Assembly: GCF_004339545.1 (NCBI RefSeq)
Contig: NZ_SMGD01000011.1
Location: 558,001 to 622,000 of the forward strand
Direction of reading: 5' to 3'
DNA: 64,000 nucleotides
Source of the DNA: Celerinatantimonas diazotrophica
GTDB lineage: Bacteria; Pseudomonadota; Gammaproteobacteria; Enterobacterales; Celerinatantimonadaceae
Part shown: piece by piece, positions 6,973 through 54,054 of the stretch
Layout: each line of letters starts with the position of its first letter
Numbering within the stretch: position 1 is the first letter of the stretch
Program-made: the position numbers and the translations under genes
Notes under the pieces: model-generated
Seen by the model: only the letters and a program-made list of their open reading frames with translations
Databases searched by the model: none
What the model was told of the DNA's origin: nothing

Positions 6973-7034
6973 AGTATTTATTCTCTCTCGGGTATGACAA
7001 CCACGAAACATCCACGCACCCGAACAAAAAACGT

Positions 7035-7140
7035 GAAATTTCGATGGTCTCGCCAACCGAGAGGCATCCGCACCATGGCATGTGGCCAATTATGTTGATA
7101 CGGACTCTTTCAAAAAAGAAAGCAGGCTACTCCCCAACGC
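7035..7140 (-). promoter_or_regulatory. yybP-ykoY manganese riboswitch in the mntP leader
   Basis: Read on the minus strand the leader begins GCGTTGGGGAGTAGCCTGC, continues with GTATCAACATAATTGGCC and closes with CTCTCGGTTGGCGAGACC. GGGGAGTAGC and the TCAACAT loop are the conserved blocks of the yybP-ykoY class, which senses Mn2+ and controls mntP and alx in enterobacteria. The final hairpin is followed by about 60 nt to the mntP start. ATTTCG (7143-7148) could also pair with CGAAAT (7038-7043), but that 5' strand overlaps the predicted -10, so the exact 5' end is uncertain. Confidence 0.9.
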
Positions 7141-7145
7141 CGCGA

Positions 7146-7174
7146 AATATACCATTGAGATGAGAATGCATCAA
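7146..7174 (-). promoter_or_regulatory. Predicted sigma-70 promoter of mntP riboswitch transcript
   Basis: On the minus strand TTGATG (7169-7174) and TATATT (7146-7151) are separated by exactly 17 bp. Initiation would then fall near 7139, at the first base of the aptamer. This is inferred from consensus only. Confidence 0.5.
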
Positions 7175-8408: not shown

Positions 8409-8709
8409 AAGCCTTCCTTCCAATAAAAAATATGCAAAGAAGCCATCTGTCATACAAACACATTGTGGCGATTGACCACATAAACAAACCGACTTCCCTA
8501 CGATGGCATGATCCATATCAGGTGATGCGGGTATTCTCTCAGCCATAAGGCACCCCGAGTCAGTAATCATTTTAATACGATCAGCGCATTTACTGCCACT
8601 AAAAATGAGTGCTTTCTTAGAACCGCCCTTTACACTTACAATCGGGACTTATTGACTGACGCGCTATACTATCGCTTCAACAATGAAACCGTTTAAGTAA
8701 TAAGACATC

Positions 8710-44480: not shown

Positions 44481-44512
44481 AGAGCCATTTCATCAATCTC
44501 TATCCTTTCTAT

Positions 44513-44537
44513 GGCGGGCTAAATGCCCGCCTTTTTT
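44513..44537 (+). terminator. Intrinsic terminator of the aldehyde dehydrogenase gene
   Basis: GGCGGGC, loop TAAAT, GCCCGCC, then TTTTTT. Confidence 0.9.
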
Positions 44538-44575
44538 ATCTAAATGACACCCATTGAAAAACCCTCGATAACACA

Positions 44576-44603
44576 TTGTATTAAAGAGCAATCAGCGTAA
44601 AAT
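44576..44603 (+). promoter_or_regulatory. Predicted promoter of tRNA-Ser
   Basis: TTGTAT (44576-44581) and TAAAAT (44598-44603) are 16 bp apart and followed by a G+C-rich discriminator GCCCCC, as at stringently controlled stable-RNA promoters. Confidence 0.5.
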
Positions 44604-44616
44604 ATGCCCCCGAAAC

Positions 44617-44706
<90 letters not shown>

Positions 44707-44780
44707 ACCACAACACTACAACCAATAGAAAAATCAATATCTTACGGCAGTGGGCCGACTCCCAAACTATTTTTAGGCAC

Positions 44781-44802
44781 AAAAAAAACCGCTAAAAGCG
44801 GG
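44781..44802 (-). terminator. Terminator of the phage lysis gene block
   Basis: On the minus strand CCGCT, loop TTT, AGCGG, followed by eight T. It closes the minus-strand phage-derived genes before the tRNA. Confidence 0.8.
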
Positions 44803-44840
44803 TCTTTTAAGAATCTCAAAATAGAGAGGATTAATAAAAT

Positions 44841-45011
44841 TTAAGCAGCCTTATTTTTTGCTTTACGACGCCCTTGTAACTCTTCATGAGTAGGGGCTGT
44901 GTGCTCAAATAATTTAGGTGACACTTTCAACAACAAATCTACAGCTTCACTCATACGACTAAAAACTGCAGTTGTTTCAAATTTTTTCTCTTGAGTAGTT
45001 TCTTTTTGCAT
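44841..45011 (-). CDS. Small hypothetical protein of the phage-derived block
   Basis: A 56-residue protein beginning MQKETTQEKKFETTAVFSRM and ending in a basic RRKAKNKAA tail. The GAGGAGG ribosome site immediately upstream of 45011 supports this start. I recognise no family. The charged, soluble composition suggests a small accessory phage protein. It is the last gene before the terminator at 44781-44802. Confidence 0.5.
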   Translation of the reverse strand: MQKETTQEKKFETTAVFSRMSEAVDLLLKVSPKLFEHTAPTHEELQGRRKAKNKAA

Positions 45012-45084
45012 AAATCGTCCTCCTCTACCCATTTACTACATCTAGGCAAAATCAACAACGATAATCCGTTATCTGCATCAATAT

Positions 45085-45107
45085 CAAAAAATGGGGAAAA
45101 CATTCCC
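45085..45107 (-). terminator. Terminator-like hairpin
   Basis: On the minus strand GGGAA, loop TGTT, TTCCC, then CATTTTTT. It separates the 76-residue membrane protein gene from the small gene downstream. Confidence 0.6.
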
Positions 45108-45120
45108 ACAAAAGAACTAA

Positions 45121-45351
45121 CTACTTGTTTCTTTTTATTCTTTGAACAATAAAGTTATAAATCACAATAGAGGTTACAATCAGGGTGACAATATCGCCAG
45201 CCTGAAAATGGAACTGGCCATGAATGAGTTGATCAAAAGAGGCCGATAACAATGACTTTGCAAAGCCACTGTTTTGCACACTCTTAGATAAGGCAATCCC
45301 AGAGGATACATTTGAAGCAGTCTGGCTCAATTGGCTTGTGTGTCTTGCCAT
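45121..45351 (-). CDS. Small membrane protein of the lysis cassette (holin- or antiholin-like)
   Basis: A 76-residue protein with one membrane helix near 53-70 (DIVTLIVTSIVIYNFIVQRI) and a short basic end (KRNK). It follows the spanin genes and overlaps the Rz1-like gene by 25 bp, a spacing common in phage lysis blocks. A holin or holin-regulator role is inferred from size, topology and position only. Confidence 0.45.
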   Translation of the reverse strand: MARHTSQLSQTASNVSSGIALSKSVQNSGFAKSLLSASFDQLIHGQFHFQAGDIVTLIVTSIVIYNFIVQRIKRNK

Positions 45352-45602
45352 TGTCTTAAACTCCGTTTATCTGAGTTACAACGTTGAAGTGCCGCACGTA
45401 AATCAATCCAGTAATGCACTAAATCATAATTCACGGCAGGGATTGTTAGTTTCTTAGGTTCATCGGTGGGCTGGATATATTCCTGCGGCAGCAAAATTTT
45501 ATCGTGCTGAATTCTGACTATTATCTTTTGAACGGGAAGAGCCGAGCAAGCGGATAACAGCATCGGGAACACGAGCAATAGACCACGATTTAACTTTGTC
45601 AT
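45327..45602 (-). CDS. Rz1-like outer-membrane spanin lipoprotein
   Basis: A 91-residue lipoprotein: a signal peptide with lipobox LSAC (cysteine near residue 19), then a short periplasmic region with KIIVRIQHDKILLPQEYIQP and the late ALQRCNSDKRSLRQWQ motif of P2 LysC/Rz1-type o-spanins. It starts inside the end of the endolysin-spanin frame in a different register and overlaps it by 104 bp, the standard Rz/Rz1 embedded arrangement. It would pair with the i-spanin segment to fuse inner and outer membranes in the last step of lysis. Confidence 0.75.
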   Translation of the reverse strand: MTKLNRGLLLVFPMLLSACSALPVQKIIVRIQHDKILLPQEYIQPTDEPKKLTIPAVNYDLVHYWIDLRAALQRCNSDKRSLRQWQDTQAN

Positions 45603-45900
45603 TTGTTTTTCTCAGTCCTTCAAGTTTGTCCGAAAGCTCAGCTAATTGAGTACGCTGCAGAGCCAGTTCATTGTTCCTCTGGAGCAATATCTGTTCGCGG
45701 CGTTTAATTTCTTGTTTAAGGGCGTGGTTATCAGCTTCTGAGGACGATAACGACTCGGCCAGCTCATTGTGGTTCGTCGTGAGTGTTTGAATATCCTTGT
45801 GGGCCGAGGTCAGGTCGGAATGTAATCCACCGATGCGCCATTGCTGAAAGCCAACAAATAGCGCCAGACCCAAGCAGGCCCAGATAGCAAGTTTACTCAC
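45499..45900 (-). CDS. Possible independently initiated i-spanin (Rz-like) within the fusion frame
   Basis: A GTG at 45898-45900, in frame with the fusion, follows TGAGGATATATCCC, a good ribosome site. Translation from it would give a 133-residue protein starting MSKLAIWACLGLALF, exactly the N-in, single-helix layout of an i-spanin. This offers an alternative to an obligate fusion. Confidence 0.45.
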   Translation of the reverse strand: MSKLAIWACLGLALFVGFQQWRIGGLHSDLTSAHKDIQTLTTNHNELAESLSSSEADNHALKQEIKRREQILLQRNNELALQRTQLAELSDKLEGLRKTNDKVKSWSIARVPDAVIRLLGSSRSKDNSQNSAR

Positions 45901-46464
45901 GGGATATATCCTCATAAATCTGACGGATTTAGGCGCGTAATTGAGTGTTTCAGTGGGGTCTTTCATCACATCAGGCAGACACGCCATAATGGGTTGATAC
46001 CAGGATGGGTTACCGCAAGCCTTTTGCGCCTTCAATATCCATCCACAGCCCACGTTGTAGCAGGCCAATGCAAGGTTATAACGGTCTATTTCAGGTCGTG
46101 GCCAGCGCCAAACATAACGCAACTTAGCCATGTAATAGGCACCGGCAGGAATAGCCAAGCGCACATCCGTAGGCTCGCCATGAAACCCCAACGCTTTGGC
46201 CGTTTCATCCCAGGTCTGCGGCATAAATTGCGCAATCCCTCTCGCCCCCACTGTGCTTTGAGCATCGGGATTCAACGAGGATTCCTGGATTAATTGTGCT
46301 TTATAGAGCAGCCAAGGCTCATAAGGAATATAATGACGGGCGGCTTTTTTAATGCGCCAGTCGTAAACTTTACGCCATGCCGATTGCGAAGGCGATGAAC
46401 ACAGCAAGGCAGCGCAGGCCAAAATACAGACCCATAGCGATCTGGTGGTATTTATCATCAACAC
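45499..46464 (-). CDS. Endolysin-spanin fusion: SLT lytic transglycosylase plus Rz-like i-spanin
   Basis: A 321-residue continuous frame. Residues 1-30 form a signal-type helix. About 45-150 form a lysozyme-like transglycosylase domain (QLIQESSLNPDAQS with the catalytic glutamate, GARGIAQFMPQTW, LACYNVGCGW). A membrane helix at about 192-210 (LAIWACLGLALFVGF) follows, then a coiled coil rich in Glu, Gln and Arg (215-290) and a VPDAVIRLLGS end typical of Rz proteins. Two lysis functions that are normally separate genes thus share one frame. An internal start at 45900 may also produce the spanin alone. It is preceded by a holin-like gene that overlaps it by 95 bp. Confidence 0.7.
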   Translation of the reverse strand: MLMINTTRSLWVCILACAALLCSSPSQSAWRKVYDWRIKKAARHYIPYEPWLLYKAQLIQESSLNPDAQSTVGARGIAQFMPQTWDETAKALGFHGEPTDVRLAIPAGAYYMAKLRYVWRWPRPEIDRYNLALACYNVGCGWILKAQKACGNPSWYQPIMACLPDVMKDPTETLNYAPKSVRFMRIYPVSKLAIWACLGLALFVGFQQWRIGGLHSDLTSAHKDIQTLTTNHNELAESLSSSEADNHALKQEIKRREQILLQRNNELALQRTQLAELSDKLEGLRKTNDKVKSWSIARVPDAVIRLLGSSRSKDNSQNSAR

Positions 46465-46711
46465 GTTTCGACCATTGGTAAAAAGTCAGGTGGCTACTGC
46501 GGTCAAAAAATCGCAACGTAAACCACGCCAATAACACCACAGTGCAGGAACGAACGAGACTCACCACGAAACTTACAAATGATGTAAAGATAGGGATTTG
46601 ATGAAAAAGCCAAACAAAGACGATAATGACTACAATACCGATACCAATTCCAAACCAAACCAGCTTTTCTATCGAGCCAAAGAACTTGGCCCACTTCGAT
46701 AACAATTTCAT
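46370..46711 (-). CDS. Holin-like membrane protein
   Basis: A 113-residue protein with about three hydrophobic helices (WFGIGIGIVVIIVFVWLFHQ; FVSFVVSLVRSCTVVLLAWF; LYFGLRCLAVFIAFAIG) and charged turns. It lies directly upstream of the endolysin gene and overlaps it, the usual holin position. I recognise no specific holin family, so the call is by topology and place. Confidence 0.55.
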   Translation of the reverse strand: MKLLSKWAKFFGSIEKLVWFGIGIGIVVIIVFVWLFHQIPIFTSFVSFVVSLVRSCTVVLLAWFTLRFFDRSSHLTFYQWSKRVDDKYHQIAMGLYFGLRCLAVFIAFAIGMA

Positions 46712-46733
46712 AGGTTCACCAAATTTCAGATAT

Positions 46734-46767
46734 AAAAAAGCCTGTAAATCGAAATCTACAGGCTTTT
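46734..46767. terminator. Bidirectional terminator upstream of the holin-like gene
   Basis: AAAAGCCTGTA (46736-46746) pairs with TACAGGCTTTT (46757-46767); T runs flank it on both strands. In a lambdoid late operon a terminator here is what a Q-type antiterminator would override. Confidence 0.8.
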
Positions 46768-46831
46768 GGTCGTACTCATCAGCAGGTTAGAGAAACAATG
46801 CGTTGAACGTTAACAAATTGCAATACACTAA

Positions 46832-46860
46832 AAACAAAAAAGCAGCCTAAAAATAGCTGC
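46832..46860 (-). terminator. Second terminator in tandem, minus strand
   Basis: GCAGC, loop TATTTTTAG, GCTGC, then TTTTTTG on the minus strand. It stands about 70 bp before the bidirectional hairpin. Confidence 0.6.
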
Positions 46861-46904
46861 CTTCAAAAATCCTCAGAATGAATCTTAACGTTTGGCCTTT
46901 ACCA

Positions 46905-47037
46905 TCACTTCTTGCTGTAATTTGATTTAAACATCAATAAGGCTAGCATACACTGCTTTTCATTCTTGATCTGAACTGTATCTAAAAAATCTAGATACTT
47001 TTTTAACTCCAGAAAAAGTCAAGTTTGCTTTGGACAT
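46905..47037 (-). pseudogene. Short phage gene with apparent A-run frameshift
   Basis: AGGAG and a TAATG stop-start overlap with the preceding gene mark a real start at 47037. The frame (MSKANLTFSGVKK...) stops after 25 codons at 46960. Removing one base from the A6 run (46999-47004, minus strand) restores a 43-residue protein continuing YLDFLDTVQIKNEKQC to a stop at 46905. No family is recognised. It may equally be a real 25-residue peptide or a sequencing error. Confidence 0.35.
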
Positions 47038-47579
47038 TAAAACTCCTGAGATTTGACGGACATCCTGTATTGCTTACGAATATCACCACATACAATTTCA
47101 ATATTCAGCAATGCATTCGTGGCAGTTTGTTTGAGTCCCTCAATAACATGACTCACACTGTCCTGATAATCACGACTATATGCAGGGGCACTTATTCCTA
47201 TACTGCGAGCAATTTCTGAGTCAGAGATAATGAACTGAGTGTCATTAATTTCTCGACGACATTTGAGAATGATAACATCCACCAGCAGAGAAATGCGTCT
47301 AACTTACTTTAGACTGTTACTCCAATCTGGATGCAGTGTTAACAAACTACGATAAACAAATTGAGAGGCTCGCTCCAGGTATTTGCCCTGAGCATCATCG
47401 GGCGCAAACATAACCATGCCAATATCAAGCTGGCTTTTAGGTAATGCTAAAACAGCGTGCTTAACTTTCGCTAACTCGCCTTGCATCACATCCCAGGTAA
47501 CACCCGAACTGCCATCACCAGAGCGAGAACGAATCGAACAAAAAGTATCATGCCAGGCATCGATAGGATTATTCAACAT
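47037..47579 (-). pseudogene. Q-like phage regulator split by an in-frame TAA
   Basis: Two frames of 91 and 81 residues lie in the same register, separated by one TAA at 47304-47306. The first starts MLNNPIDAWHDTFCSIRSRS and ends HPDWSNSLK. After the stop the frame continues VRRISLLVDVIILKCRREIN with an HTH-like segment DSEIARSIGISAPAYSRDYQ and a helix with ALLNIEIVCGDI. Read through, the 180-residue product has the layout of phage late antiterminator-type proteins (HTH followed by a helical end), and its place before tandem terminators and a lysis cassette fits a Q role. The second half could instead start at GTG 47282 as a separate gene. Function is inferred. Confidence 0.45.
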
Positions 47580-47610
47580 TTATTTTTCCAAGGAATAATA
47601 AATGCATAAT

Positions 47611-47642
47611 ATAGAATGGGTTGGAACGTTCAATCCATTCTA
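47611..47642. repeat. Imperfect palindrome after ietS
   Basis: ATAGAATGGGTTGGAAC is followed by GTTCAATCCATTCTAT, an inverted repeat with two mismatches centred on GAAC|GTTC. It may be a weak terminator of ietAS or an operator for the downstream gene. Confidence 0.5.
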
Positions 47643-47675
47643 TAATTCCCCATAAGTAACGTTCTAAAACTAATT

Positions 47676-50180
47676 CTATATTTTAATCTGATTTTTAATC
47701 GGAACTTGATTTCGTATAATAGTCTCGATTGTAGAGTAGAGATCTACATCGGATGAAGGTGTTTCAATAGAAATGATTAGGGAGTATCGAGCTTCCTTGT
47801 TATATCTTTCTAATTTTTTGCGAGTCCGCCACCATCCCATAGCAGGATACACAGCTAACAATCCCCTTTCGGCCAAATCAGCTGCTGTTCCATGCCACTC
47901 ATCTTTATGAATTGATCCTTTGTTACGAAAATCACCGATTAACCAATTTGGATCTGACGGGGAACTAGGCGAACCTTCCTCTTCATCTCGAGCAGCCCGA
48001 CTCAACCGTTTAACAAATTGTTCAGGAGACTCTGTCGGACGTTTCACATCAAATCGTAATTGGTGACTAGGATATCTATATTTATTTGAAATATTCCGAC
48101 TTGATGGATTCGGTTCAATAAAATACGACAATGTAACAGTCATTGTTACCGGTGTTTCACCAAGATCAAGTAATTGCTCTTTAGGCCAAGGAATATCATG
48201 AATATGCATATCCCGCGTAGATGGTTCACTTTTCCCCTTCAATTTTTCAAAAGGCTGTAATGAGTCCTCTATAATTATAGATAGTGAATTATTAACACTC
48301 CATAGAGCTTTTGTTAAATCAGGGACACCATATCCAACGCAACGGAGTAGATGTTGAACATTTTGCCGTTCTGTCTTACCTGGATTACGAAATTGACGAA
48401 TCATGGCTTTTGTCCAACTTGCAGAATGTACCATAATTCCTCTAACTGATTCAGGCCACAAATTCGGATAAGCAGACCAAATTTCTGATGCAAATTTAGC
48501 GGCTAGAGCCGTTGCTGCACTAGTAGCATTAAATGTAGAAAACATCCTAACTAGAGGCTTAAAGTGAATACTTAAAAGGAGTAAACTATCCATTGAACAA
48601 GCTGAATACTGATCAACGCCCATATTTCCACCTTCAAATACGACTTCCGGTTTAAGCGGCATCGACCGCTTCCATATAACTGATGTTGTCGCAAATGGGC
48701 TTAATCCACCATTAGGAGCTAAAGGGGAATAATTCTCGGCACCAGAATCTGTTATCTCAATTTTATCTGTAAAAGCACCTACCGTTATAGCATTCCATGA
48801 CTGACCAGGATCTTGGATATCCTGGAGTTCATTATATTGTGGATAACTATTAGCTATATTGCTTAAATCATTCCCTGTATTACCAGCACAAACTAAAAAC
48901 AATCTTGGATATAAATTATCCCCCATATAGTCAACAGCTAACGAGTCAATTTCGGATGACCAAGCAGATGGTGTCCCTCTATCCATTGATTCTTCCGCTG
49001 ATAGTGCCATCGTGTATATTCTCTTTCTATCAGCATGAGAAATTTCAGATAAAGAAATACCAGAAGCAGTTATATTCCCAAGATGTTTACCTTGATTATC
49101 ACCAGGGTGACGAAGAAGTTTTATAGACTCAACTTTATGATTAATACTCATCATTGTTGAAGAACTAAGGGAATCTGTTAAATCGCCCCAAATGGCAAGA
49201 CCAGCCATGGATGTTCCATGCCCTTCTTCATCATCTTCAGACCAGTTATCATCAACAACGAATAAGTCTTTCGAACTAATACATTTGGCTAACAATGGAT
49301 GCCCAATATTTATTCCCGTATCAAGGATTGAAATATATGGTGTATTTTTTCGTGAATTAAAATTATATTGAGCTCTATTAAGTAGATCCTTTACCCATTC
49401 TCTTTCTTCTTCGATATCTAATGATGAAAAAAATTCTGCTGTCGTTTTTGCCTTTCTTATTTCAGATATTTTACTTAGTAATGCAACTGAACTAGTCAAT
49501 TTTTTAAGTGATGTATGAACCAATAAAACAGTTCGCTCAGGGAATTCCAATATATTATCAGATGATTCTATATGATTAAGTAGGCATAAACGTTTAAAAT
49601 CATCAATATTACCAACTCTATCATTCAACACTGGTATCCATATTTCAAACCATTCAACATTTGTATTTAATTTCGGATATAACTCTCTATTATCTGTCCA
49701 CAAGTTCTTAATTACAGTCTTTCTAATATTCTCAATGTTATTTAAAAGAGCTGCATTCTTGGGTCCTAGTTTCCCATCATTATTGGGATCTAAATATTGC
49801 TTTATCTTATTTTCTAAAATAGGAAATTTACCAATTGGGACAGATATATTTGCAATCGATACATCTTTATCAGAAGTAATACTTAAAAGTTCAATACCAC
49901 TTCGAACATCAGCTAATCTTTCAAAAAGAATTTCTATTCCTGGAAAACTTTCAAATGATACTTGGACACCAATAGGGCAGTTTAAATCAATATCATCTAA
50001 ATCATCTTCAATCTTACTTTCAAAACTTTTTACTTGTTCTAGCTGTCTAAGAAGCATCTTTCCATGATATATTCTATCAGCTGATTTAACTTTATCATTA
50101 GATATTACTTTTCGAGGATATATATATTTTTCGATTCTGCCATTTTTCCCTAATAAAAAATGTCTTTTTCTATCCATCAT
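47676..50180 (-). CDS. ietS: Subtilisin-like serine protease IetS of an IetAS-type defence module
   Basis: An 834-residue protein with a roughly 270-residue N-terminal region of unknown fold, then an S8 peptidase domain. The catalytic triad is complete: D287 in SILDTGINIG, H321 in EGHGTSMAG, S554 in NATSAATALAA; the oxyanion asparagine is in FLVCAGNTGND. There is no signal peptide, so it acts in the cytoplasm. Together with the adjacent AAA+ gene it matches the IetA-IetS pair, first described on a Ti plasmid as an addiction-like locus and later as an anti-phage system. Base composition is A+T-richer than in the flanking chromosomal genes, indicating transfer. The gap to ietA is 21 bp. Confidence 0.8.
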   Translation of the reverse strand: MMDRKRHFLLGKNGRIEKYIYPRKVISNDKVKSADRIYHGKMLLRQLEQVKSFESKIEDDLDDIDLNCPIGVQVSFESFPGIEILFERLADVRSGIELLSITSDKDVSIANISVPIGKFPILENKIKQYLDPNNDGKLGPKNAALLNNIENIRKTVIKNLWTDNRELYPKLNTNVEWFEIWIPVLNDRVGNIDDFKRLCLLNHIESSDNILEFPERTVLLVHTSLKKLTSSVALLSKISEIRKAKTTAEFFSSLDIEEEREWVKDLLNRAQYNFNSRKNTPYISILDTGINIGHPLLAKCISSKDLFVVDDNWSEDDEEGHGTSMAGLAIWGDLTDSLSSSTMMSINHKVESIKLLRHPGDNQGKHLGNITASGISLSEISHADRKRIYTMALSAEESMDRGTPSAWSSEIDSLAVDYMGDNLYPRLFLVCAGNTGNDLSNIANSYPQYNELQDIQDPGQSWNAITVGAFTDKIEITDSGAENYSPLAPNGGLSPFATTSVIWKRSMPLKPEVVFEGGNMGVDQYSACSMDSLLLLSIHFKPLVRMFSTFNATSAATALAAKFASEIWSAYPNLWPESVRGIMVHSASWTKAMIRQFRNPGKTERQNVQHLLRCVGYGVPDLTKALWSVNNSLSIIIEDSLQPFEKLKGKSEPSTRDMHIHDIPWPKEQLLDLGETPVTMTVTLSYFIEPNPSSRNISNKYRYPSHQLRFDVKRPTESPEQFVKRLSRAARDEEEGSPSSPSDPNWLIGDFRNKGSIHKDEWHGTAADLAERGLLAVYPAMGWWRTRKKLERYNKEARYSLIISIETPSSDVDLYSTIETIIRNQVPIKNQIKI

Positions 50181-50201
50181 TGAGAGTCCATCAACTTAAA
50201 T

Positions 50202-51188
50202 TTAACATAGGCTTTTCCTCATGTTTTTTCTTTCTAATATTGCATTTTTAACTGATGTTAATGTGATGCGGTTCGAATCATGTATTATCATTTCTTTTAT
50301 AGCTTCTTCCGCTGCACGAGTAATCTCTGCATTACTTAACTCTTTTGCAATATCTGGCAATTTTCTCCATGGGAAACTTTTTGCAACATAAGGTTTTAGC
50401 CTGTCCTTAAATAAGGTAATTATTTCGTCATCTTCAGGCAGTTCATATCTAATTACATCATCAAATCTTCTAAATAGAGCACTATCTAATATTTCAATAT
50501 GATTCGTAGCACAAATGATTAAGCTATTTGAATTATCTTGCTCTATCATTTGTAGAAAACTATTTAATATTCTGCGAGCCTCACCAACATCATTAGCTGA
50601 ATCTCTCTGAGATCCCAATGCATCAAACTCATCAAAGAAATAAACACCACGCACATCGCTAATCGCATCAAATACTTGGCGCAATTTAGCCGATGACTCT
50701 CCCATGAATTTAGTAATCACAGCATCAAGACGTACTTGAAATAATGGATAATTCAACTCTCCAGCTAAAATTGAAGCCGTGAATGTTTTCCCCGTACCAG
50801 GGGGACCTACAAGAAGAATTTTCCGCCGAGGAGACAGTCCATGAGTTTTTAACACTGTCATAAATCTCTGCTCTCTGATTAACCGTTCGAGACGATTTTT
50901 CAACTCATTTTTTACGACTAAATCAGTTAGTTTATTTTTAGGTTGAGAAGCAAAGAGTAATCCATTTGAATCCTTAACACCCTTAGCAATGGAAATAGGA
51001 TGAGTATTTTCTAAATGAATTTTATTTTTCTTCGCCATTGTAACAATATCACGAAGTTCTTGAGCTAACTTACCATGCCCATTACGAGCTTCGTGAGCCG
51101 CTACTTGCAAAGCAACAGACATAAATCTCCCATCATCCTTCTCAAGATGCGATTGGAAAAGTGCTTTTAATTGCTCAGAACTAGCCAT
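50202..51188 (-). CDS. ietA: AAA+ ATPase IetA of an IetAS-type defence module
   Basis: A 328-residue ATPase with an N-terminal helical region (SEQLKALFQSHLEKDDGRFM) and one AAA domain. Walker A is GPPGTGKTFTASILAG, Walker B is GVYFFDEFDALGSQRD, and the sensor residues lie in ICATNHIEILDSALFRRFDD with its arginine fingers. All catalytic elements are intact. It is expected to control or deliver substrates to the protease encoded 21 bp downstream. The gene lies inside the phage-derived block and is preceded by a terminator that isolates it from the DUF968 gene. Confidence 0.8.
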   Translation of the reverse strand: MASSEQLKALFQSHLEKDDGRFMSVALQVAAHEARNGHGKLAQELRDIVTMAKKNKIHLENTHPISIAKGVKDSNGLLFASQPKNKLTDLVVKNELKNRLERLIREQRFMTVLKTHGLSPRRKILLVGPPGTGKTFTASILAGELNYPLFQVRLDAVITKFMGESSAKLRQVFDAISDVRGVYFFDEFDALGSQRDSANDVGEARRILNSFLQMIEQDNSNSLIICATNHIEILDSALFRRFDDVIRYELPEDDEIITLFKDRLKPYVAKSFPWRKLPDIAKELSNAEITRAAEEAIKEMIIHDSNRITLTSVKNAILERKNMRKSLC

Positions 51189-51247
51189 GTGAGTCTTCTT
51201 TCAGTAGCATATCAGTACAACGGTATCGCTTGTAGTTTGACACAGCA

Positions 51248-51273
51248 TCAAAAAAACATCCAATAGATGTTTG
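51248..51273 (-). terminator. Terminator between DUF968 gene and ietA
   Basis: On the minus strand AACATC, loop TATTG, GATGTTTTTTT. It would stop phage-derived transcription before ietA, leaving ietAS on its own promoter. Confidence 0.7.
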
Positions 51274-51312
51274 ATAAATGTTAGGCCGATTGTATTTGTT
51301 TTTCACACATAA

Positions 51313-51329
51313 TTATTGTGTATCACACA
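51313..51329. promoter_or_regulatory. Imperfect palindrome, candidate operator
   Basis: ACACATAATTATTGTGT is nearly self-complementary, with five matched bases at each end around an A/T centre. It lies in the 200-bp gap upstream of ietA, after the DUF968 gene. Its regulator is unknown. Confidence 0.35.
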
Positions 51330-51388
51330 GTAACTTTTTGTTACCTATTATGATATAAATCTAGTTATGTTCATTTTTATCATTCATG

Positions 51389-52326
51389 CTAATTAAAGAT
51401 TCCCAACTCACACGCTGTACTCAACGTTCTAAACACATACTCAATCTGGGATGAATGTTGTTTCTCCCATGCCTGCCACCCAATCTGATGCAAGTTCATA
51501 TGTTCGCCATTGCTTAATGGGAATGTAAATAAATCATGAGTCTTTGTCCCCATAGCGCTTACACCATGCCCAATAAGGTGATGCGCTTCAACGCCTTCAG
51601 ATTTACCTGTAATCACACAGGCTAACGAACGAACAAACTGCAGGTACTTTTCACTTTGAAAACGCTGTGCTTTAGGCTTCACCATAAACATAGCTGGTGG
51701 CTCTGGCTCAACAGTTAAGTTGATAGGTTTTACATGGCGAGCAAGAATATCTGCAGGCATAGGAACCATCTGATTATGAATCGATGGCATAGGGACTTGA
51801 TTAAACTCAGCCACCAGCCTCTCAGAAAGCAAATCAGCAACATGATTGATAACAACCCAACTTACAACATGATCGATGTCTATCTGTTTACTGTGCCGAT
51901 GGCTTGCGATGGTCTGTAGCCCAAAACGAAGTAACCAATTTACATTCGATAATCGATCATCTAAATCATGGTGCCAACATTGTGGCGAGCAATACGGATA
52001 ATCGCCATGTATTACAACACTTCCCACACAGCCACCCTCTTGCTCGAATTCACAAAATTGGCGTAACAACCATTTACGAAAATCACCTAACAAATGTAAG
52101 ACCCGAGGATTAGCAAAAAATCGGTCAATTCCTTTTGATATTTATGCCACCAGGGAGCAGTCTGCTGAGCAAAGCTCACTCCTTCAGATTGATGATTATG
52201 CGCAGGACTCAGACAGACCCGACTTAATTCGATTGGATCGATATGGCTCCAATAATCTTGTAAAGGAATGATTAAGGCTTTTAGTTCAGGCTTAACAATG
52301 GCATGTGTTGTTAATTTCAATTCCAT
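51389..52326 (-). pseudogene. DUF968 phage protein (HNH-like), frameshifted at a T6 run
   Basis: The N-terminal 70 residues (MELKLTTHAIVKPELKALII ... PWWHKYQKELTDF) lie in one register. The rest continues in another as FANPRVLHLLGDFRKWLL to a C-terminal HNH-like zinc-site region (CVITGKSEGVEAHHLIGHG, GTKTHDLFTFPL, NLHQIGWQAWE). This is the layout of DUF968 proteins of lambdoid phages. The registers join at the A6 run 52115-52120 (T6 on the coding strand); one more T would restore a protein of about 312 residues. It may be a true inactivation or a sequence error. The 234-residue downstream part could still start internally at 52093. Confidence 0.7.
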
Positions 52327-52691
52327 TTCTCCGATATAAATCGAATAAAAACAATATTGCGTGAAATGGAACGAGCAACCAACTCATGGCTTCAAATAAG
52401 GATTGGGCAAGAATGATTTAGCCAGAACATGACTAAATCAAAGATGGACAAAAATCATCTGAGACCTAGATTGAGTTCAGCATATTTCTGATGAAAAAAT
52501 ATATGGGAAAGTCTTAATTAGTGGCCAATTTTATTCAGCCACTACAGTTAACAAAAAAGTGAAGGTGCTTCGTAACCGATAGAAGCCAGTTTTACTCAAC
52601 GCTATCTTTGGTCTTTGTAAAATTTAGTTTCAAAACGCTCGCCACACCGCACTAAATCACAGCACAACGACCGAGTAACTGAAAGTAGATT
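52327..52691. other. Gene-free interval between phage-derived block and xylA terminator
   Basis: About 365 bp with no frame I can support and no copy of the tRNA-Ser 3' end. A hairpin TAGTGGC/GCCACTA with a 12-base loop lies at 52519-52544. The right boundary of the phage-derived block must be here or has been lost. Confidence 0.5.
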
Positions 52692-52723
52692 AAAAAAGCA
52701 GCAAGTCACAAGGCTTGCTGCTT
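52692..52723 (-). terminator. Intrinsic terminator of xylA
   Basis: On the minus strand AAGCAGCAAG, loop CCTTGTGA, CTTGCTGCTT followed by TTTT. It starts 15 bp after the xylA stop. Confidence 0.88.
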
Positions 52724-52737
52724 GAGCGATAGAATAA

Positions 52738-54054
52738 TTAGTAAATATAACGATTCACCAGATTTTCTAGATATTCCTGCTGTCCTGATTCTGGCTGCGG
52801 ATCAATATCGTTATTTAACGCATATTCAGCCAGTTCAGCTAACGAACTATTCGAGCCCAAAATTTTCTGGCCCAGTTGAGAATTCCACCCCACATAGCGT
52901 TTTTCAACACATTGACTCAATTCTTGCTGTTCTAACAAATCAGCTGCTTTTAAAAGTGCCAATGCCATGGTATCCATTCCACCAATATGTCCATAGAACA
53001 AATCTTCAGGAGCAATGGAAGGTCTGCGGACTTTTGCATCAAAGTTCAAGCCACCCGTTGTAAAACCACCACCTTTAAGCAGTTCATAAAGCATCAGGGT
53101 ATTTTCTTCAACACTATTTGGGAACTGGTCGGTATCCCAGCCTGACTGTGGGTCGCCCCGGTTTGCATCAATCGATCCCATAATGCCCAATGCATTGGCA
53201 GTGGCCACTTCATGTTGGAATGAGTGACCCGCCAAAGTTGCATGGTTCGCCTCAATATTCACTTTGATTTCATTTTCCAAACCAAACTGTTTTAAAAAGC
53301 CATAAACAGTTGCGACATCATAATCATATTGGTGTTTGGTGGGTTCTTGAGGTTTGGGTTCAATTAAGATAGTTCCTTTAAATCCGATTTTATGTTTATG
53401 TTCAACCACCATTTGCATCAAGCGACCAAGCTGCTGACGTTCTTTTTTAAGGTCGGTATTCAGTAAGGTTTCATAACCTTCTCGTCCACCCCATAAAACA
53501 TAGTTTTGCCCCCCTAATTCTTGGGTAGCATTCATTGCATTAAAAATCTGCATTGCAGCATAAGCAAAAACTTGTGGATCAGGGTTTGACGCAGCGCCAT
53601 GCATAAAGCGCCGATTCGTAAAGACGTTCGCAGTCCCCCACAACAATTTCACCCCGGTTTGCTGTTGCTTAGCCGCTAAAGTTTCAACCATCTGATGGAA
53701 ATTATGATCAAATTCTTTGATATTGGCACCTTGTGGAGCAACATCTACATCATGGAAACAATAGAATGGGGCACCGAGTTTTTGGAAAAACTCAAATGCA
53801 ACATCCGCCTTAAGCTGTGCTAGCTCAAGCTCATTACCGGGTTGTTGCCAAGGACGATCAAATGATGGCGCACCAAACATATCGGTACCTGGCCAAGCAA
53901 ATGTATGCCAATAACACACGGCAAAGCGCAGATGGTCACGCATCGATTTGCCTAATACTTCACGTTCTGGCTGATAGTAACGAAATGCCAACGGATTACG
54001 GCTGTCAGCACCTTCATATTTAATTGCTTCAATATTTTTAAAAAAATCACTCAT
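52738..54054 (-). CDS. xylA: Xylose isomerase
   Basis: A 438-residue class II xylose isomerase. The catalytic histidine region is [23 protein letters not shown] contains the first metal ligand glutamate, [14 protein letters not shown] holds the second site, and [20 protein letters not shown] has the aspartate ligands. It converts D-xylose to D-xylulose. It is monocistronic in effect: a 135-bp gap with a candidate XylR site separates it from the upstream symporter gene, and it is followed by its own terminator. Confidence 0.97.

Follow-up and report, generated by a model that had tools for sequence, protein, structure and literature searches.

An IetAS-type ATPase–subtilase gene pair, probably phage cargo, in a decayed prophage of Celerinatantimonas diazotrophica

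Two adjacent genes for an ATPase and a subtilase

The DNA analysed here, which we call the window, is a stretch of 64,000 nucleotides from the gammaproteobacterium Celerinatantimonas diazotrophica (RefSeq assembly GCF_004339545.1, contig NZ_SMGD01000011.1, positions 558,001 to 622,000 of the forward strand). Two of its genes lie side by side on the − strand: one for an IetA-like AAA+ ATPase of 328 amino acids (aa) (50202..51188) and, 21 bases further on, one for an IetS-like subtilase of the S8 family, 834 aa long (47676..50180). IetAS is a known kind of bacterial anti-virus defence that is mechanistically unexplained; its original report is said to be that of Gao et al. in 2020. An earlier inspection of this locus, the sequence-only reading, took the two genes for an IetAS-type module inserted in the late-gene region of a lambdoid phage, and its gene boundaries agree with our open reading frames (ORFs). 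Both proteins were identified by ORF call, PADLOC and Pfam matches, alignment and fold model. The low G+C content noted by that reading is confirmed: 0.353 for IetS and 0.360 for IetA, compared with 0.420 for the neighbouring Q-like and DUF968 genes, 0.466 for the lysis genes, and 0.438 for the window.

The subtilase comprises an N-terminal extension (residues ~1–270), a catalytic domain (~279–627), and a mostly beta C-terminal part that reaches to ~806; it matches Pfam Peptidase_S8 with 164.7 bits. The triad named by the sequence-only reading, D287, H321 and S554, occurs within typical S8 contexts and, together with N434, is invariant in all 101 aligned rows (94 distinct sequences). In the fold model (pLDDT 87.1), residues of about 279–627 match subtilisins, and the match with KP-43 goes as far as residue 805 (Z 25.4, root-mean-square deviation (rmsd) 2.9, 374 residues aligned, span 279–805). 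The best Foldseek match is to the propeptide-bearing structure 3afg and, because the query TM-score (TMq) is 0.32 and the rmsd 23.1, the identification of the N-terminal extension as an I9-type prodomain is no more than a conjecture. A sequence search of the PDB with IetS returned 16 matches, none beyond ordinary subtilases, the best with an E-value of 2.4e-7. No signal peptide was recognized in either protein by eye, and so the pair is probably cytoplasmic.

The ATPase matches Pfam AAA (PF00004) with 111.1 bits. Three N-terminal helices (4–58) are followed by what we take to be Walker A (128–135), the pore loop (160–164), Walker B (182–187), N229, and the Arg pair (240–241). K134, D186, E187, N229, R240 and R241 are invariant in all 114 aligned rows (108 distinct sequences), and position 161, in the pore loop, is F or Y in 112 of them. 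Its fold model (pLDDT 81.6) matches the AAA domains of PAN and FtsH over about 75–328 (PAN 3h4m: Z 24.9, rmsd 2.9, 251 aligned; FtsH 4ww0: Z 24.1, rmsd 2.4, 238 aligned). These searches probe chiefly the AAA domain of IetA and the catalytic domain of IetS. PAN works with the 20S proteasome core, and FtsH carries a fused metalloprotease; the IetA-like protein shares its AAA domain fold and motifs with both but, unlike them, has a separate subtilase for its protease partner. The claim that complete S8 and AAA+ motifs stand in adjacent genes is thus borne out.

The alignments comprise 89 + 12 rows for IetS and 103 + 11 for IetA, duplicates included; they leave out IetS ORFs shorter than 720 aa, IetA ORFs outside 230–420 aa, and loci L001–L006 and L038. 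When IetS is compared with its Vibrio mytili relative by the Nei–Gojobori method (NG86), nonsynonymous divergence (dN) is 0.25 and synonymous divergence (dS) 2.4, which is near saturation; for IetA, dS is saturated.

Ahead of the pair lies an intergenic leader (51189..51388, − strand) in which the sequence-only reading placed an insulating terminator. A scan of this interval for consensus terminators found none. What it does contain, within 51232–51290, is a weak A+T-rich hairpin followed by a run of T's on the − strand (minimum free energy −11.3, z −2.2, equalled by 5 of 200 shuffles). The case for an insulating terminator is weak. Elsewhere in the window, both on the − strand, are a manganese (yybP-ykoY) riboswitch at 6982–7147 and a thiamine pyrophosphate (TPP) riboswitch at 8478–8567.

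The pair within the IetAS superfamily

Judged by significance, rather than by PADLOC's own system cut-offs, the two proteins match the PADLOC models for IetA (PDLC02196: 240.2 bits, E 1.1e-71) and IetS (PDLC02198: 108.5 bits, E 5.7e-32). They fall short of the NCBIfam IteA and IteS equivalogs, NF042959 and NF042956, scoring 195.3 bits where the cut-off is 510, and 69.1 where it is 900. Because these cut-offs lie so far above the scores, we regard the pair as belonging to a divergent clade of the superfamily. Low profile scores are what the sequence-only reading had said would speak against IetAS, and with NCBIfam they are low indeed; the PADLOC matches, however, are significant, and a published IetAS pair scores much the same. 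That pair is carried by the Pseudomonas filamentous phage PfAC08 (OR818368), and its authors, who obtained no PfAC08 lysogens, name it IetAS (PMC11878078). It scores 264.5 and 108.8 bits with PADLOC and 231.7 and 95.0 with NCBIfam, under both cut-offs, and so the name IetAS has already been applied at such depth. The PfAC08 and window pairs have in common that each is a phage-borne ATPase and S8 peptidase with low model scores; they differ in that PfAC08's belongs to another deep lineage (its best model is PDLC02197) and travels in a filamentous phage.

The clade's separateness is plain from its scores. Ten IetS proteins of the window group were scored on PDLC02198 (the window's own, L007, L043, L071, L080, L092, L108, L138, L149 and L013), and nine gave 108–141 bits, with L043 giving 81. 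Of the nine members of another group (A4), which is the model's own, three were scored on it and gave 854 (L056), 1077 (L062) and 832 bits (L064), in contrast, and L065 gave 765.5 bits on PDLC04233. The two groups are nevertheless homologous over nearly the whole protease: when a profile of 63 window-group IetS sequences (A1) is aligned by hhalign with the profile of the nine in A4, the probability is 100 and the E-value 2.6e-51 over 755 columns, spanning columns 8–834 of 840. A tree of 60 rows places the window group, whose 49 rows had been assigned to it earlier by BLAST identity, on one side of a branch supported at 95 by the Shimodaira–Hasegawa-like approximate likelihood-ratio test (SH-aLRT), its root being unsure on account of long outgroup branches. 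The closest rows are from Vibrio mytili and Pseudoalteromonas, 68% identical at best. A suggestion that the distant-group IetA proteins (L055–L063 and L070) are without the N-terminal domain was dropped: their flanks are short, and several of the ORFs begin at the end of the locus. One further member of that group, L064, has an IetA of 333 aa.

The two genes are conserved as a unit, mostly in Pseudomonadota. Six short peptide patterns and the GTDB species genomes yielded 490 tblastn relatives of IetA, and the best 80 of these, 55–83% identical, were examined. A full tandem, in which the IetS is no shorter than 800 aa and lies −37 to +32 bases from IetA, is present in 68 of the 80. The distances among IetA proteins and among their IetS partners are strongly correlated (Mantel r 0.91 for 78 distinct pairs, with none of 2000 permutations as high). 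Viral contigs show the pair too: 10 of 15 carry IetA beside a full-length IetS, one (L012) has a piece of IetS at the end of the locus, and two (L014 and L019) stop shortly after IetA. Among plasmids, IetA matches 1401 of 72,556 records, 502 of them across 80% or more of the protein, and many of these matches may be owed to the AAA domain alone.

What unites the window pair with IetAS as defined by PADLOC and NCBIfam is an AAA+ ATPase gene followed by an S8 peptidase gene, the same catalytic residues, intact motifs, significant PADLOC model matches, and profile homology along the full length of the protease. On the evidence of sequence, we conclude that the pair is a real, intact and divergent member of the known IetAS superfamily and not a new system; we claim no new fold for it. 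The sequence-only assignment to IetAS is therefore supported at the level of the superfamily, and not at that of the narrow NCBIfam equivalogs.

The prophage remnant and its probable cargo spot

Around the pair are the remains, about 8 kb long, of a decayed prophage; all of the remnant's genes described here are on the − strand. Upstream of it is a DUF968 gene, termed 'HNH endonuclease' in PHROGs and recognized by Pfam as well, that is split over two frames into ORFs of 79 and 234 aa (52087–52326 and 51389–52093). Downstream is a phage gene, 'Q-like', to which PHROGs assigns no function (47037..47579), interrupted by a premature in-frame stop that leaves 91 and 81 aa; its only PHROG matches are to families of unknown function. 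Next comes a membrane protein of 113 aa (46370..46711) that has no convincing family match and is called holin-like by eye and by position. It is followed by a single 321-aa ORF in which PHROGs recognizes both an SLT endolysin and the i-spanin Rz (45499..46464), then by an Rz1-like o-spanin, also recognized by PHROGs (45327..45602), and, at the end of the remnant (44841..45351), by two small ORFs, one of 63 aa that matches phrog_2741, of unknown function, and one of 76 aa without a Pfam match. A tRNA-Ser(cga) gene on the + strand (44617..44706) borders the remnant. No convincing att-like direct repeats were found in 44500–53000, and none of the genome's matches to Phage_integrase (PF00589) is on the window's contig.

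The same genome carries a related prophage, L176, about 93 kb from the window pair. It contains a repressor, O- and P-like genes, an intact Q-like gene, holin-like, endolysin and Rz genes, and genes for a contractile tail, including the sheath. A sister species carries another, L042, also with an intact Q-like gene, whose repressor, O- and P-like proteins, named by PHROGs, are 33, 65 and 68% identical to those of L176. Window and L176 are 80% identical in DNA across the lysis block and 77% in the Q-like gene, and their holin-like proteins are equal in length and 73% identical. The fusion of endolysin and spanin is not a novelty: in L176 the two are separate, overlapping genes, a difference in length of one base is what runs them together in the window, and we explain the fusion as decay. 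DUF968, Q-like and endolysin/Rz are thus all broken, whereas IetA and IetS are intact; sequencing error may lie behind these breaks. The claim of a phage late-gene region holds insofar as phage genes flank the pair, with the amendment that the region is a ruin. 'Lambdoid', likewise, appears to fit the early genes of the relatives only, because L176 has contractile-tail genes; no tail genes were seen in the window remnant.

Homology between window and L176 stops at the start of the Q-like gene, and what stands upstream of that gene differs in each of the three prophages examined. The window has IetAS; L176 has, on the opposite strand, a gene with a phospholipase catalytic domain like that of the T6SS effector Tle1 (L176:12226-13749, G000:C1; PF09994, 288.5 bits); L042 has two ORFs without a confident family. 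Because three related prophages carry three different contents at this place, a cargo spot just upstream of the Q-like gene is supported by these comparisons, in what is a small sample. The sequence-only reading had put the spot between DUF968 and the Q-like gene; the Q-like boundary stands, and DUF968 is the upstream flank in just two of the three. L042 also has, between its Q-like and lysis genes (L042:11939-16333), a 374-aa ORF without a family, a DNA methyltransferase, a Vsr-like ORF, and a restriction endonuclease, the two enzymes having been named by PHROGs and the Vsr-like ORF between them by eye.

The Q-like gene is rare. Of the 394 genomes of the order searched, only 2 have it, those of the two species of this genus, at four places, three of which provide the comparison above; the fourth is a degenerate copy in the sister species. 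Weak relatives are found in six Vibrio phage records, Vhmlvirus among them, and neither DUF968 nor the Q-like protein, used as queries against viral contigs, returned any loci. At the sister-species site that matches the window's (L041), IetAS is absent. The site is not cleanly empty, because no more than a fragment of xylA is present and the stretch separating the dehydrogenase gene from the tRNA holds a degenerate piece of a Q-like gene. This Q-like piece (L041:5632-5808) is next to the same tRNA-Ser, on the side opposite to that of the window remnant.

Defence, and other ways to read the locus

We consider it probable that the pair is a two-gene IetAS-superfamily operon that a temperate phage carried as cargo just upstream of the Q-like gene, that has persisted through the decay of the prophage, and that is activated upon infection. 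A phage would have acquired the pair at the cargo spot, and the host would have kept it as the rest of the prophage fell apart; phage cargo that has outlived its prophage is the most likely description. IetA, we suppose, would form a ring like those of PAN and FtsH, and thread or remodel proteins by way of its aromatic pore loop. IetS would be held inactive, perhaps by its N-terminal extension, until infection, when IetA would load it or activate it, the ring feeding or gating the protease. Active IetS might then cleave phage or host proteins, and the phage would fail to propagate. A bolder version, which we think less likely than not, is that ATP-dependent subtilases form a large clade, widely transferred and left unnamed by the current equivalog models, to which the window pair belongs, and that the pair is an AAA-gated intracellular subtilisin, a small proteasome-like immune executioner, and a host-domesticated remnant of a dead prophage.

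The pair might instead serve the prophage itself, by excluding competitors or processing phage proteins, rather than the host. It does stand at a place in the phage where the cargo differs from one related prophage to the next, and another phage, PfAC08, bears an IetAS pair. We think this unlikely, however: the prophage is decayed and the pair intact, and no other IetA relative was found to have the window's phage genes within its flanks of up to 6 kb.

Distinctly unlikely, in our view, is that the genes encode a mobile housekeeping or stress protease of the ATP-dependent kind, concerned with protein quality control and not with defence. The AAA domain is nearest to those of CDC48, PAN and FtsH, and neither protein has a signal peptide recognizable by eye. 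Against this, IetS is sporadic: at E ≤ 0.001 only G036 and the genome of the window itself have it among the 60 genomes of the relatives set, and it occurs in 27 of 369 genomes of the class. These 27 comprise its own genome, 8 others that are 39–53% identical over at least 700 residues, 3 partial matches (40–52%), and 15 that are distant or short. By inspection of the tree, moreover, the sequences next to it are those of Vibrio, Pseudoalteromonas and Xenorhabdus, which belong to different families, and restriction–modification genes and integrases are among its flanks, in a scan without a control.

An addiction pair of the toxin–antitoxin sort, a toxic subtilase restrained by the ATPase, would suit the tight spacing and the usual pairing of the genes, and one paper groups IetAS with toxin–antitoxin systems (PMC11878078), but we find it very improbable, as IetA retains Walker A and B, the Arg pair and the pore loop, more than simple restraint needs, and no lone IetS was established among the loci examined (L050, L052 and L053 show IetS without IetA, but the first two reach the end of the locus and L053 is a fragment).

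Several observations weigh against the proposal of retained phage cargo acting in defence, the shortfall against the NCBIfam equivalogs among them. The pairing is not universal: IetS is short, split or displaced in 8 of the 80 relatives, several of them at contig ends, and BLASTP finds no IetS ORF in 4 more. Three of these (L098, L128 and L131) stop soon after IetA, and the fourth (L106) has a faint IetS-like piece (residues 6–51, 37%) followed by a different ORF of 689 aa. Two viral contigs (L017 and L021) likewise have an IetA relative, then other genes, and no IetS. Of 50,697 annotated phage records, only 2 match IetS by tblastn, a search that misses remoter IetAS pairs, since PfAC08 is absent from its matches; IetA matches 153 records, just 6 of them across 80% or more of the protein. 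The window's phage neighbours, sought by BLAST, appear only in loci of its own genome and the sister species, and near no other IetA relative within flanks of 6 kb at most, which makes the phage setting particular to this genome. The intact state of the pair amid decay may merely reflect recent arrival. Because the flank scan had no control, no enrichment of defence genes is claimed from it, but what it found speaks for the proposal: among 128 flanking genes at 75 loci, single PADLOC models for type I and type II methyltransferases match up to four each, Phage_integrase seven, AbiEii two, and resolvase two. Finally, we found in the literature no experiments on this clade.

The mechanism of IetAS is described as 'awaiting to be described' (PMC9958689, 2023), in a paper that also places ietAS on an integrative and conjugative element in Salmonella Typhimurium, and as one that 'remains unknown' (PMC11878078, 2025); a third paper names ietAS in one of its tables, in the row for functional phage proteins that are mutated (PMC10286901). 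Our literature search turned up no mechanistic account.

The pair described here is ordinary in kind, a divergent member of a kind already known. A clade so distant and yet so well conserved, together with fold models that are fairly confident, supplies invariant residues to mutate, and comparison with it reveals which parts of IetAS are common to the whole superfamily. The locus itself illustrates clearly how a likely defence module can outlast the phage that carried it.

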